From Fulvimonas soli (lineage in GTDB: Bacteria > Pseudomonadota > Gammaproteobacteria > Xanthomonadales > Rhodanobacteraceae): a stretch of DNA of 64,000 bases. The stretch covers positions 40,286 through 104,285 of the forward strand of contig NZ_QGHC01000006.1 in the NCBI RefSeq assembly GCF_003148905.1, written 5' to 3'. The notes beneath the pieces were generated by a model. That model was not told the origin of the DNA, ran no database searches, and worked only from the letters and a program-made list of their open reading frames with translations. Position numbers and translations under genes: made by a program. Below, in pieces: positions 48,218-54,837 of this stretch; position 1 is the stretch's first letter, and each line of letters starts with the position of its first letter.

Positions 48218-49831
48218 TCAACCGCCCAACGGCGGCAACCCGAGCCCGAGCCGCAACGGATCGAGCAGCGCGCCGTAACGCTCCGCACGCGCGGTATCGC
48301 GGCGCAGCGGCTGGCGCACCTGCGCGGCGCTGGCGGTGCGCACGCTGCGCTCGGCGCGGTGGAAGTCCAGGCAGGCCGGGTCGAACGGCAGGCCGCAGAA
48401 GTCGAGCAGGGCGCGGATCTCCCGCTCCGGGTCGGCCAGCAGCGCCTCGTAGCACTGCGTGCGGATGCGCGCCGGACCGGCCGCGCGCCAGGCGTCCATC
48501 GCGCGTTCGTAGTCGCGGATGTAGGCGGCGATGTCGGTGAGCGCGCAGGCGAAGTGCGGCAGCCGGTAGAACTGCTGCTTGTAGCAGGACCAGCCGGCCT
48601 CCAGCGCGTCGCGCCGCGCGTCGACGATGCGCGCGCCCGGCAGCATCGCGCGCAGCAGCCCGGCGTAAAGCCAGTTCTCCGGCAGCTTGTCGGTGTGGCG
48701 CGGCCGCTGCGCGCGCCAGCGCGCGGTGCGCTCGAGGTAGCGCTTGCCCAGCCGGAGCCAGTCGGCCGCGCTGGCCCGGGCAAGCCACTGCGGGAACGGC
48801 TGGCCGCGCCGGCGCGATTCCTCGGCGAGCGTCTCGGGAAGGTCCGGCAGCTCGCTGGCGCCCTCCACCTGCGGGTGCGCGGCGAGGATCTGCTCGAACA
48901 GGGTGGAGCCCGAGCGCGGCAGGCCGACGATGAAGATCGCCTCGCGGCCCAGCGCGGGATCGGCCGGCTCCGGCAGCGCCGCGTCGGCGGCGCGCACCGC
49001 TTCCACCAGCGCGTGGAAGGCCCCGGCCTGCCACGGCGCCAGCCGGCGCTGCTGCGCGTTGGCCTCGCCCAGCGCGGCGAAGGCCGCCGCGTAGTCGCCC
49101 TGGTCCTCGCACGCCTTGCCCAGCGCGAAGCCGAGGGCGATGCGGTCCGGCGGCGCCAGGTCGTCGCGCCGGAGCAGGCCGGCGAGCCGCGTGCGCTCGT
49201 CGGCGGAGAGCGGGCGCGTCTTCAGGTTGGCCAGCCCGCGCCAGGCGTCGCCGCAGGCCGGATGCAGCGCCAGCGCGGCGCGGTAGCGCGCGTCCGCCTC
49301 GTCGAGGCGGCCCAGGTGCGCCAGCGCGTCGCCGAGCAGCACCTGCGCGGGCAGCAGGTCCGGCGCCAGCGCGGCGGCGCGCTGCAGCGCCTCGGCCGCC
49401 TCCGCCGTGGCGCCGGCCTGCTGCAGGTTGCGGCCCAGGTTGAACCACGGCATCGGCGCGTCCGGCGCCAGCGCGCAGGCGCGCCGCCAGCTCGCCAGCG
49501 CGGCCTCGCCGTCGCCCGTCGCCTGCAGCGCGGTGCCCAGGTCGGAATGCGCCAGCGCGTAGTCGGGCCACCGCGCCAGCGCGCGGCGCAGCCATGCCTG
49601 CGCCTCGGCCGGCCGCTGCCGGCGCAGGTGCAGGACGCCGTACAGGCGCAGCGTCTCGGGGTGCTCCGGCGCCAGCCCCAGGGCCGCGTCCAGCGCCTGC
49701 CGCGCCGCGTGCTCGTCGCCGTCGCGGATCGCCCGCGCGGCGGCCTGCAGCCGCGCCACGGCCGCGGCGGGCAGGCCGTCGAGGCAGGGCTCGGCACGGC
49801 GGTGCGGCGGGGCGGCGGCAGGCTCGGACAT
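48218..49831 (-). CDS. TPR-repeat sulfotransferase
   Basis: The 537-residue protein joins an N-terminal TPR array (about residues 30-205, at least four repeats such as [21 protein letters not shown]) to a sulfotransferase domain. The 5'-phosphosulfate loop is GLPRSGST at 303-310 and the 3'-phosphate region is [13 protein letters not shown]. It should transfer sulfate from PAPS to a protein or other acceptor chosen through the TPRs. It is divergent from cysD-cysNC, which makes PAPS, 158 bp between starts. No signal peptide, so it acts in the cytoplasm. Confidence 0.9.
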
Positions 49832-49989
49832 GCGGTGCTCGCAACGGGGCTGTCCCGCCGATGCTACGTCGCCCCGCCGGGCGTGGCGAGGCGCGCGGCG
49901 GCCGAAGGGGTAAACCGGGAACGGGTCTGCTACGTTTGCGCGATGGCTTCCGCGGAAGGCGGGCCGTTGACCGATCCAGGAGTTGCGCT
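49832..49989. promoter_or_regulatory. Divergent control region between the sulfotransferase and cysD
   Basis: 158 bp without a gene. TGCTACGT occurs twice in direct orientation (49863-49870 and 49929-49936), and each includes a possible -10. AGGAG at 49978-49982 serves the TTG start of cysD. A shared regulator of sulfation and PAPS supply could bind here; no operator is recognised. Confidence 0.35.
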
Positions 49990-50892
49990 TTGCCGTCCCT
50001 TGGCCACCTCGACGAACTGGAAGCCGAGAGCATCCACATCCTGCGCGAGGTGTTCGCCTGCTTCCGCCGCCCGGTCATGCTGTACTCGCTGGGCAAGGAC
50101 TCGCAGGTGCTGCTGCACCTGTTGCGCAAGGCCAGCTTCCCCGCGAAGCCGCCGGTGCCGCTGCTGCACGTCGACACGCTGTGGAAGTTCCGCGAGATGA
50201 TCGCGCTGCGCGAGCGCGTCGCCGCGCGGGGCGACGTGGAGGTGCTGGTGCACGTCAACGAGGATGGCGTGCGCCGGGGCATCTCACCGCTGCTGCACGG
50301 CGCGGCGCTGCACACCGACGTGATGAAGACGCAGGCGCTGAAGCAGGCGCTGGACAAGTACGGCTTCGACGCGGCGATCGGCGGCGCGCGGCGCGACGAG
50401 GAGAAGTCGCGCGCCAAGGAGCGCGTGTTCTCCTTCCGCAGCGCGCAGCACCGCTGGGACCCCAGGCGGCAGCGGCCGGAGCTGTGGCGGGCCTACAACA
50501 CGCGCCTGTCGCCGGGCGAGAACGCGCGCGTGTTCCCGCTGTCCAACTGGACCGAGCTGGACGTGTGGCGTTACATCCGCCGCGAGGGCATCGAGGTGGT
50601 GCCGCTGTACTTCGCCGCCGAGCGCCCGGTGGTGGCGCGCGACGGCGCGCTGATCCTGGTGGACGACGGGCGCTTCACGCTGCGCGAGGGCGAGCGCGTG
50701 GAGATGCGCAGGGTGCGCTTCCGCACGCTGGGTTGCTACCCGCTCACCGGCGCGATCGAGTCCGAGGCCGACACGCTGGACAAGATCATCGACGAGATGG
50801 AGCGCTCGCGCGTCTCCGAGCGGCAGGGCCGCCTCATCGACCACGACGCTTCCAGCTCGATGGAGAAGAAGAAGCAGGAGGGCTACTTCTGA
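49990..50892 (+). CDS. cysD: Sulfate adenylyltransferase subunit 2
   Basis: CysD with CysN converts sulfate and ATP to APS. The 300-residue protein begins (M)[20 protein letters not shown] and has the PP-loop [11 protein letters not shown] (Ser33-Ser38), [15 protein letters not shown] and the C-terminal [23 protein letters not shown] region. The start is a TTG at 49990 with AGGAG seven bases before it; no ATG is available in frame. The stop overlaps the cysNC ATG (TGATG), a coupled operon. Confidence 0.95.
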
Positions 50893-52724
50893 TGGCCTCC
50901 CTGCTGCGCTTCATCACCTGCGGCAGCGTGGACGACGGCAAGAGCACGCTGCTCGGCCGCCTGCTGCACGACGCCGGCTGCGTGCCGGACGACCAGCTCG
51001 CCGCGCTGCGCCGCGACAGCCGCCGCCTGCACGAGGGTGACGCGGCGCTGGACTTCGCGCTGCTCACCGACGGCCTCGACGCCGAGCGCGAGCAGGGCAT
51101 CACCATCGACGTGGCCTGGCGCCATTTCCACACGCCGCGCCGGCACTTCATCGTCGCCGACTGCCCCGGCCACGAGCAGTACACCCGCAACATGGCCACC
51201 GGCGCCTCGCAGGCGCAGGCGGCGGTGGTGCTGGTGGACGCGCGCAAGGGCCTGCTGCCGCAGACCCGGCGGCACAGCTACATCTGCGCGCTGATGGGCG
51301 TCCGCCAGGTGATCCTGGCGGTGAACAAGATGGACCTGGCGGGCTTCGACGCGGACGTCTATGCGTCCATCGTCGGGCCCTACCGCGAGCTGGCGGCGAA
51401 GCTCGGCATCGCCGCCGTGCACGCGCTGCCGGTGGTGGCGCCGGCGGGCGACAACGTGGGCGCGCGCTCGGCGCGCATGCCCTGGTACGGCGGCCCCTGC
51501 CTGCTGGAGCTGCTGGAATCGGTCGAGGCCGAGTGGGCGCCGCCGGCGCGGTTCCGCCTGCCGGTGCAGTGGGTGAACCGGGCCGATGCGGACTTCCGCG
51601 GCTACGCCGGCACGGTGAGCGGCGGGCGCGTCGCGCGCGGCGACGAGGTGGTGGTGCAGCCGGGCATGCAGCGGGCGCGGGTGGCGCGCATCGTCACTGC
51701 CGACGGCGACCTCGCCGCCGCCGCGCACGGCCAGGCGGTCACCCTGTGCCTGGACCGCGAGGTGGACGCCGGCCGCGGCGACGTCGTCAGCGCCGCCGCG
51801 CAGCCCGCGCCGGTGGCCGACCAGTTCGGCTGCCACCTGATCTGGATGGACGAGGCGCCGCTGCTGCCCAGCCGCAGCTACCTGCTGCGGCTGGGCACGC
51901 GCACGGTCAACGCGCGCGTCACCGCGATCAAGCACAAGGTGGACGTGAACACGCAGGCCGAGCTGGCCGCGCGCCGGCTCGAGCTCAACGAGGTCGGCTA
52001 CTGCAACATCGACCTGGACCAGCCGGTGCCGTTCGAGCGCTATGCCGACGACCGCACGCTGGGCGGCTTCGTGCTGGTCGACCGGCAGAGCAACGCCACC
52101 GTGGCCTGCGGCATGATCGACTTCGCGCTGCGCCGCGCCGCCAACATCCACTGGCAGCACACCGACGTGGACAAGGCCATGCGCGCCCACGCCAAGGGAC
52201 AGAAGCCGCTGTGCCTGTGGTTCACCGGCCTGTCCGGCGCGGGCAAGTCCACCGTCGCCAACCTGGTCGAGCGCCAGCTCGCCGCGCAGGGCTTCCACAC
52301 CTACCTGCTGGACGGCGACAACCTGCGTCACGGCCTCAACGTGGACCTGGGCTTCACCGCCGAGGCGCGCGTGGAGAACGTGCGCCGCGTGGCCGAGGTG
52401 GCCAGCCTGATGGTGGACGCGGGGCTGATCGTGCTGGTGTGCGTGATCTCGCCGTTTCGCAGCGAGCGCGAGTTCGCGCGCGGACGCTTCGCCGAGGGCG
52501 AGTTCGTGGAGGTGTTCGTGGACACGCCGCTGGCCGAGTGCGAGCGGCGCGATCCCAAGGGCCTCTACCGCAAGGCGCGCGCCGGCGAGATCCGCAACTT
52601 CACCGGCATCGACTCGCCCTACGAGCCGCCGCAGCGGCCGGAGCTGCACCTGCGCGCCGACGGCCACCGGGTCGAGCAGCTGGCCGGGGAAGTGCTGGCA
52701 AGGGTGCGGGCGTTGCAGGGATAG
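50892..52724 (+). CDS. cysNC: Sulfate adenylyltransferase subunit 1 fused to adenylylsulfate kinase
   Basis: A bifunctional 610-residue enzyme. The N-terminal CysN GTPase has GSVDDGKST at 11-19, DCPGH at 90-94 and NKMD at 145-148, followed by two beta-barrels. The C-terminal APS kinase (from about 425) has the P-loop GLSGAGKST at 446-454 and [10 protein letters not shown]. It therefore turns APS into PAPS in one chain. This NodQ/RaxQ-like fusion suits PAPS supply for sulfation as well as cysteine synthesis. No cysH, cysI or cysJ is in the window. Confidence 0.95.

Positions 52725-53034: not shown

Positions 53035-54837
<1,803 letters not shown>

Follow-up and report, generated by a model that had tools for sequence, protein, structure and literature searches.

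Why should a bacterium keep an operon for making the sulfate donor 3'-phosphoadenosine 5'-phosphosulfate (PAPS) directly beside a sulfotransferase gene? The question is raised by a locus of Fulvimonas soli, which lies within a 64,000-nucleotide stretch (the window) on contig 6 of a genome assembly of 3.77 Mb in 44 contigs. At this locus the gene for a sulfotransferase with tetratricopeptide repeats (TPR-sulfotransferase; 48,218-49,831, minus strand, 537 residues) is divergent from cysD, which encodes the small subunit of sulfate adenylyltransferase (49,990-50,892, plus strand, 300 residues), and from a cysN-cysC fusion encoding the GTPase subunit and adenosine 5'-phosphosulfate (APS) kinase (50,892-52,724, plus strand, 610 residues). 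The explanation that we consider best, with a probability only a little above even, is that cysDNC serves as a separate PAPS source and that the neighboring enzyme, related to the tyrosylprotein sulfotransferases (TPSTs), acts on a protein or peptide. The gene identities are clear. The sulfotransferase matches Pfam Sulfotransfer_3 (PF13469) at residues 299-485 (1.6e-39; 136.8 bits against a cut-off of 27) and TPR families over about residues 33-203; its membership of PF13469 is borne out by the PAPS-binding loop PRSGSTL, whose arginine, R306, is present in all 103 TPR-sulfotransferases compared. CysD scores 508.6 bits with the NCBIfam CysD models (cut-off 413) and the fusion 928.7 bits with NCBIfam PRK05506 (cut-off 715), with a Pfam APS_kinase match at 8.4e-66, so that the CysD, CysN and CysC models all identify a cysDNC-type ATP sulfurylase and APS kinase above cut-off. 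The TTG start of cysD is preceded by an AGGAG that ends 7 bases before it, and the ATG of cysN-cysC overlaps the cysD stop codon by one base. The divergent genes are separated by 158 bp (49,832-49,989), and here the coordinates and curated models agree with the arrangement described in the first-pass annotation. Because all three genes score far above curated cut-offs, and because the same divergent arrangement recurs in 5 of the 19 relatives that carry an orthologue of the sulfotransferase (63 to 76% identity), the arrangement is not due to chance.

The window contains no cysH, cysI or cysJ; these genes are found on contig 4, where cysJ, cysI, cysH and a bifunctional Sat-CysC form a full assimilatory block (L003) with all members above curated cut-offs. 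Beside it lie a LysR/CysB-like regulator gene that scores below the cut-offs, and siroheme-synthase-like and cysteine-synthase-like genes named from sequence only. The CysH protein has a single cysteine and scores as a PAPS reductase (TIGR02057, 274.9 bits against a cut-off of 254.2); it therefore depends on PAPS, for which Sat-CysC is an available source. APS kinase is present in two copies in the genome, one in Sat-CysC and one in the window fusion. Because Sat-CysC and cysHIJ form a separate block on another contig, the window operon reads as a second PAPS source, one without reductase genes. In this separation from the assimilatory PAPS source of the genome it resembles a dedicated, non-assimilatory PAPS operon, of which nodPQ and raxPQ are examples. 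A cysH beside a second PAPS source had been named beforehand, together with the lack of a sulfated product in the wild type, as grounds for rejecting a role in sulfation; the arrangement found favors that role, because cysDNC is thereby freed from assimilation. The absence of cysHIJ from the neighborhood, by contrast, does not support sulfation as originally supposed. This became evident in a survey of 147 genomes of the family, in which CysNC was counted at an E value of 1e-180 or better and Sat only where the match was full (67 of 70, partial matches in G040, G053 and G126 being dropped). CysNC was found in 113 genomes and full Sat in 67: 40 genomes carry both, 73 only CysNC, 27 only Sat and 7 neither. 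CysH (match at 1e-25) was found in 105 genomes; where Sat is present too, the two are no more than 12 kb apart in 56 of 57 genomes, whereas in none of the 85 genomes with CysH and CysNC do these lie within 12 kb of each other on the same contig, although fragmented assemblies may hide a few cases. A cysDNC without cysHIJ is thus normal for the family, and we rejected its isolation as evidence of sulfation.

To which sulfotransferases is the window enzyme related? When a profile of 20 of the sulfotransferase domains was searched against the PDB, the best solved relatives were the TPSTs (3.3e-19), followed by CurM (2.6e-13) and then by more distant sulfotransferases. Residue R306 is conserved in all 103 TPR-sulfotransferases, E327 and S501 in 102 each and K382 in 101. 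In the order R306, E327, K382 and S501 they align with TPST residues that correspond to R78, E99, K158 and S285 of human TPST2, the PAPS-loop arginine and the catalytic glutamate, lysine and serine. An AlphaFold2 model built with 42 sequences (mean predicted local distance difference test score 88.8) consists of a helical repeat at residues 22-264 followed by the TPST-like sulfotransferase domain (about residues 291-535). Residues 292-535 of the model superimpose on TPST1 with a Z score of 18.6 and 2.9 Å over 229 residues; the TPSTs are the sole sulfotransferase family among the best 50 matches listed, which is not evidence that others differ. The predicted domain thus combines the TPST fold with conserved catalytic residues (E327, K382 and S501), and the suggested comparison with human TPST held up both by sequence profile, in which TPSTs are the closest solved family, and by the strong fold match of the model. 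It differs from TPST1 and TPST2 in being bacterial, in having an N-terminal TPR superhelix and in lacking a signal peptide as judged by inspection; the enzyme should therefore meet both PAPS and its acceptor in the cytosol. The TPR part of the model is most similar to OGT (Z score of about 21 over about 185 residues), and SPINDLY is also among its best matches. Like these proteins, the window enzyme has a TPR superhelix followed by a transferase domain, but its catalytic domain is that of a sulfotransferase and not of a glycosyltransferase. Judged from the model, it follows the OGT plan with a TPST-like catalytic half, a likeness of plan and not of family membership. We consider it very probable that the protein is an active sulfotransferase, and the earlier proposal, that a protein target may be bound by its TPRs, is plausible and agrees with the OGT-like model.

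Taken together, these data are compatible with a mechanism in which CysD and CysN-CysC would convert sulfate, ATP and GTP to PAPS without recourse to Sat-CysC, which supplies cysteine synthesis, and this PAPS would be used by a PAPS-dependent sulfotransferase of the cytosol whose catalytic domain is of the TPST type. The TPR superhelix would most likely grip a protein or peptide acceptor and present a hydroxyl group, perhaps that of a tyrosine, as OGT does for the transfer of GlcNAc. The operon would have been inserted between a resident sulfotransferase gene and a helicase gene in an ancestor of Fulvimonas and its Frateuria-type relatives, and the pair, mostly kept together since, would raise the PAPS supply for this and other sulfotransferases of the cell. 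Several observations weigh against this explanation. At the positions aligned with R101 and R105 of TPST2, the readers of acidic acceptor sites, the window enzyme has P329 and E333, which are variable among the 103 sequences; these basic residues are thus not kept, and the acceptor may be something other than a tyrosine in an acidic site. The genome contains seven Sulfotransfer_3 matches, and the six besides the window enzyme, four of which align with it over both the TPR and the sulfotransferase parts, would need PAPS too if active. Pairing is lineage-specific: cysDNC adjoins the sulfotransferase in the window genome and, among the genomes sampled, only in the Frateuria-type relatives G005, G008, G030, G059 and G086, whereas 14 of the 20 orthologues lack it. 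In favor of the explanation, Sat-CysC is present in five of these six genomes (the sixth, G086, is 86% complete). CysH was found in four; G030, which is 99% complete, has Sat-CysC and two CysNC proteins and no CysH match at 1e-25, and G086 likewise has none, so that assimilation and sulfation are not neatly divided in every genome. In the close relative G022 (L074, L094), cysDNC lies at the helicase gene with a CysNC 90% identical to that of the window, and the sulfotransferase orthologue (75% identical) is elsewhere; the pair can therefore be separated. In a sample of 229 class members from outside the family, sulfotransferase matches at 1e-30 occur in 44 genomes and matches to CysN or CysNC at 1e-100 in 32 (the window's own genome being counted in each), and the two genes are adjacent in none of the 9 other non-family genomes with both, among the matches listed. 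In favor of the explanation, CysNC occurs within the family sample in 105 of the 125 genomes with a sulfotransferase match below 1e-25 as compared to 8 of the 22 without (Fisher's exact test, p ~1e-5), and, when only Sat-bearing genomes are considered, in 34 of 50 as compared to 6 of 17 (p = 0.024), but these figures are not corrected for ancestry and lean on few genera, and 20 of the 147 genomes have a TPR-sulfotransferase match without CysNC. The chances that cysDNC mainly serves the window enzyme are about even. Of the sulfation locus proposed in the first-pass annotation, the adjoining PAPS operon stands, strengthened by the separate PAPS source for assimilation, whereas a dedicated pair, shared control and the argument from absent cysHIJ are not supported.

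One further Sulfotransfer_3 match of the genome (L010; contig 6, 158,150-158,647) lies in a 347-residue frame that ends in transposase-like sequence when read by eye, and looks like a sulfotransferase that is broken or fused to an insertion sequence.

How the two transcription units came together was reconstructed from synteny and a CysNC tree. In many relatives without an adjacent cysDNC the sulfotransferase lies between a DEAD-box helicase gene and a stretch of metalloprotease, MAPEG, Maf and RlmH genes (names by sequence), and named records of Rhodanobacter, Frateuria and Dyella have it at the same helicase-flanked site; in the window the helicase gene, named from sequence motifs rather than by a family search, is located beyond cysN-cysC (53,035-54,837, minus strand) and marks this ancestral site. 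At 14 of 21 helicase-flanked named loci, one of which (L178) ends after the sulfotransferase, a dioxygenase-like gene (DODA type by reading rather than by a family search) follows the sulfotransferase directly and in the same direction; it is not beside the window enzyme. Of 76 named loci, some of which have short flanks, only four, all Frateuria records, have cysDNC next to the sulfotransferase, and these are not independent of G005, G008, G059 and G086. The adjacent CysNC copies form a single clade (100/99 support) that includes G022, and the adjacency label needs two changes on the tree. From this synteny the sulfotransferase appears to be older than the pairing and ancestral at the helicase-flanked site.

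Sequences upstream of the two genes point the same way. A -10-like copy of the motif ACGTA[ACG]CAT (ACGTAGCAT, 49,861-49,869, minus strand) is positioned 30-38 bases before the sulfotransferase start. Of the 76 named loci, 41 were tested for the motif; it precedes the orthologue in 16 of them and occurs at no other place in these loci. Its carriers include ten Rhodanobacter, two Dyella, one Lysobacteraceae metagenome-assembled genome and L182, all without cysDNC, as well as L174 and L175, which have it. The 25 loci that lack the motif are mostly from Luteimonas, Thermomonas, Lysobacter, Oleiagrimonas, Dokdonella and metagenome-assembled genomes, and also comprise L169 (Frateuria terrea, paired, with only TACCAT), L168 (F. 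defendens) and L173 (Rhodanobacter). On the other side of the gap, an element common to the divergent arrangements precedes cysD (GTCTGCTACGTT, 49,925-49,936, plus strand; window copy read by eye). The pattern GTCTGCTA[CG]CGT is present before cysD, with at most two mismatches, in all four other divergent loci (L169, L174, L175 and L177) and in none of 20 non-adjacent cysDNC loci; the L175 copy is identical, and the window copy does not match the exact pattern. A consensus scan of the gap yielded no sigma-70-type site, although none is expected in shuffled sequences either, so the scan says little. The shared control that had been suggested for the 158-bp region was not upheld: the sulfotransferase motif is also found in relatives without cysDNC, and the cysD side has a separate motif. 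A shared promoter was accordingly rejected, as the conserved upstream elements are separate for each gene. The plainest history would be that the sulfotransferase and its promoter came first, that a single insertion of cysDNC brought or acquired a promoter of its own, and that the pair then mostly stayed together.

In a less favored view, cysDNC would be a spare assimilatory enzyme, retained for other conditions of sulfate or energy, and would have come to lie beside the sulfotransferase by a chance insertion that was then fixed in a single lineage. In the 73 relatives with CysNC and no full Sat, CysDNC is the only PAPS source found, with cysH nowhere near it; the distribution of the pair on the tree is accounted for by a single insertion and the separation in G022, the sulfotransferase keeps its ancestral upstream motif, and G030 has Sat and cysDNC in the absence of a CysH match. 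We nevertheless regard an accident as unlikely, though seriously to be considered. Assimilation in this genome has its Sat-CysC in one block with cysHIJ, and the gap between the divergent genes is conserved in genera with CysNC proteins about 19% different from one another. In addition, another cysDNC copy has been joined to sulfotransferases. Six genomes of the Frateuria-type genus (g6) carry a second cysDNC whose CysNC forms a separate clade (100/100 support). Frateuria terrea and F. flava each possess a second cysDNC in addition to the divergent pair. Beside it lie three Sulfotransfer_3 genes and a group-1 glycosyltransferase gene in L098, one Sulfotransfer_3 gene in L108 and a TupA-like ATP-grasp gene in L096, and relatives of these neighbors are present in L107, L109 and L110; two further genes scanned at these loci gave no family match. 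L098 also has a tyrosinase-domain gene. The second locus is like that of the window in placing a PAPS operon beside sulfotransferases in close relatives, but it differs in its CysNC clade, in Sulfotransfer_3 neighbors for which the scan gave no TPR family, and in the glycosyltransferase and ATP-grasp genes nearby. The association of a PAPS operon with sulfotransferases has thus arisen on more than one occasion in these bacteria, and a role in sulfation for the window locus gains in plausibility.

An alternative that concerns the acceptor is that the enzyme sulfates a small molecule, a lipid or a glycan precursor, and that its TPRs serve dimerization or bind a partner protein. The second-best solved relative, CurM, functions in polyketide synthesis, the residues that read acidic acceptors are not kept, and the dioxygenase-like gene downstream of many orthologues would suit such a role. 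We think this doubtful on indirect grounds: the TPSTs are the closest solved family by profile and the predicted model matches their fold strongly, the TPR part resembles that of two protein-modifying enzymes, OGT and SPINDLY, and another protein-modifying domain, a TPR-associated Asp/Asn hydroxylase, is encoded beside paralogues.

These paralogues were investigated at 40 loci (L122-L161; about 45-54% identity) picked from the similarity matches; some genomes are represented twice, and many of the loci are the same cluster in related species. Our gene caller, trained on a GC-rich genome, missed genes in lower-GC relatives, and linkage to TonB-dependent receptors was therefore determined by tblastn, with references taken from the paralogue loci and two others, two of the references having been run against Pfam. 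Receptor sequence was found in 35 of the 40 loci, 79 to 2,842 bp from the sulfotransferase domain (all except L132, L135, L136, L142 and L150; 34 if pieces below 250 bp are dropped), as compared to none of 28 control loci (~411 kb). Several sulfotransferases often stand in an array at the receptor-linked loci, and a TPR-Asp/Asn beta-hydroxylase is encoded as well at 11 of the 40 (one by Pfam, the rest by tblastn; a twelfth weakly), again with none in the 28 controls. In the window's own genome one paralogue adjoins such a receptor (L114). This linkage suggests that TPR-sulfotransferases may modify the receptors or peptides that the receptors handle. A bolder extension would have the TPR-sulfotransferases of this bacterial family act in the cytosol, jointly with the TPR-Asp/Asn hydroxylases, as one protein-modification system, the substrates for sulfation (and hydroxylation) being TonB-dependent receptors or their peptide cargo. 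The window enzyme would then be a conserved stand-alone member with broad or housekeeping targets and its own PAPS operon, and an OGT-like plan would serve protein sulfation in bacteria. We consider this improbable. No receptor sequence was found beside the 19 orthologues of the window enzyme, which itself has no receptor neighbor. A gene-cluster table in PMC10040529 lists a lasso-peptide protein, sulfotransferases and an aspartyl beta-hydroxylase under neighboring numbers. Searches confined to open-licence papers, and hence no proof of absence, returned no paper on TPR sulfotransferases, none linking sulfotransferase, TonB-dependent receptor and tetratricopeptide gene clusters, and none on bacterial tyrosine sulfation with a sulfotransferase and TonB.

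The first-pass annotation had drawn a parallel with Xanthomonas. In X. oryzae the ATP sulfurylase and APS kinase genes RaxP/RaxQ are described as supplying PAPS to the sulfotransferase RaxST (PMC4216712). The two systems are alike in having PAPS-making genes beside or behind a sulfotransferase, but raxA and raxB share the operon of raxST, whereas here the PAPS genes themselves adjoin the sulfotransferase gene; we treat the parallel as a fair comparison of logic rather than a demonstrated relationship. That the window enzyme sulfates a small secreted peptide as in such a system is very unlikely, since, despite the shared combination of a PAPS operon and a TPST-like enzyme, it carries an additional TPR domain, and neither a peptidase-type ABC exporter or membrane-fusion gene nor a RaxX-like peptide or other raxX-, raxA- or raxB-like neighbor was seen by eye among the called genes of at least 60 codons beside the orthologues, a scope that excludes tiny genes and the rest of the genome.

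The preferred explanation, a separate PAPS source beside a TPST-type enzyme with a protein or peptide acceptor, bears on where protein sulfation may be found. Animals and plants are known to sulfate tyrosines of proteins; for bacteria, RaxST is the case named in the literature consulted (PMC4216712). A TPR-armed, TPST-like family that occurs in several copies per genome and is linked to TonB-dependent receptors offers concrete places in which to seek sulfated bacterial proteins. In the window genome, PAPS for sulfation appears to be supplied separately from PAPS for assimilation, and the two processes could thus be cut apart genetically.

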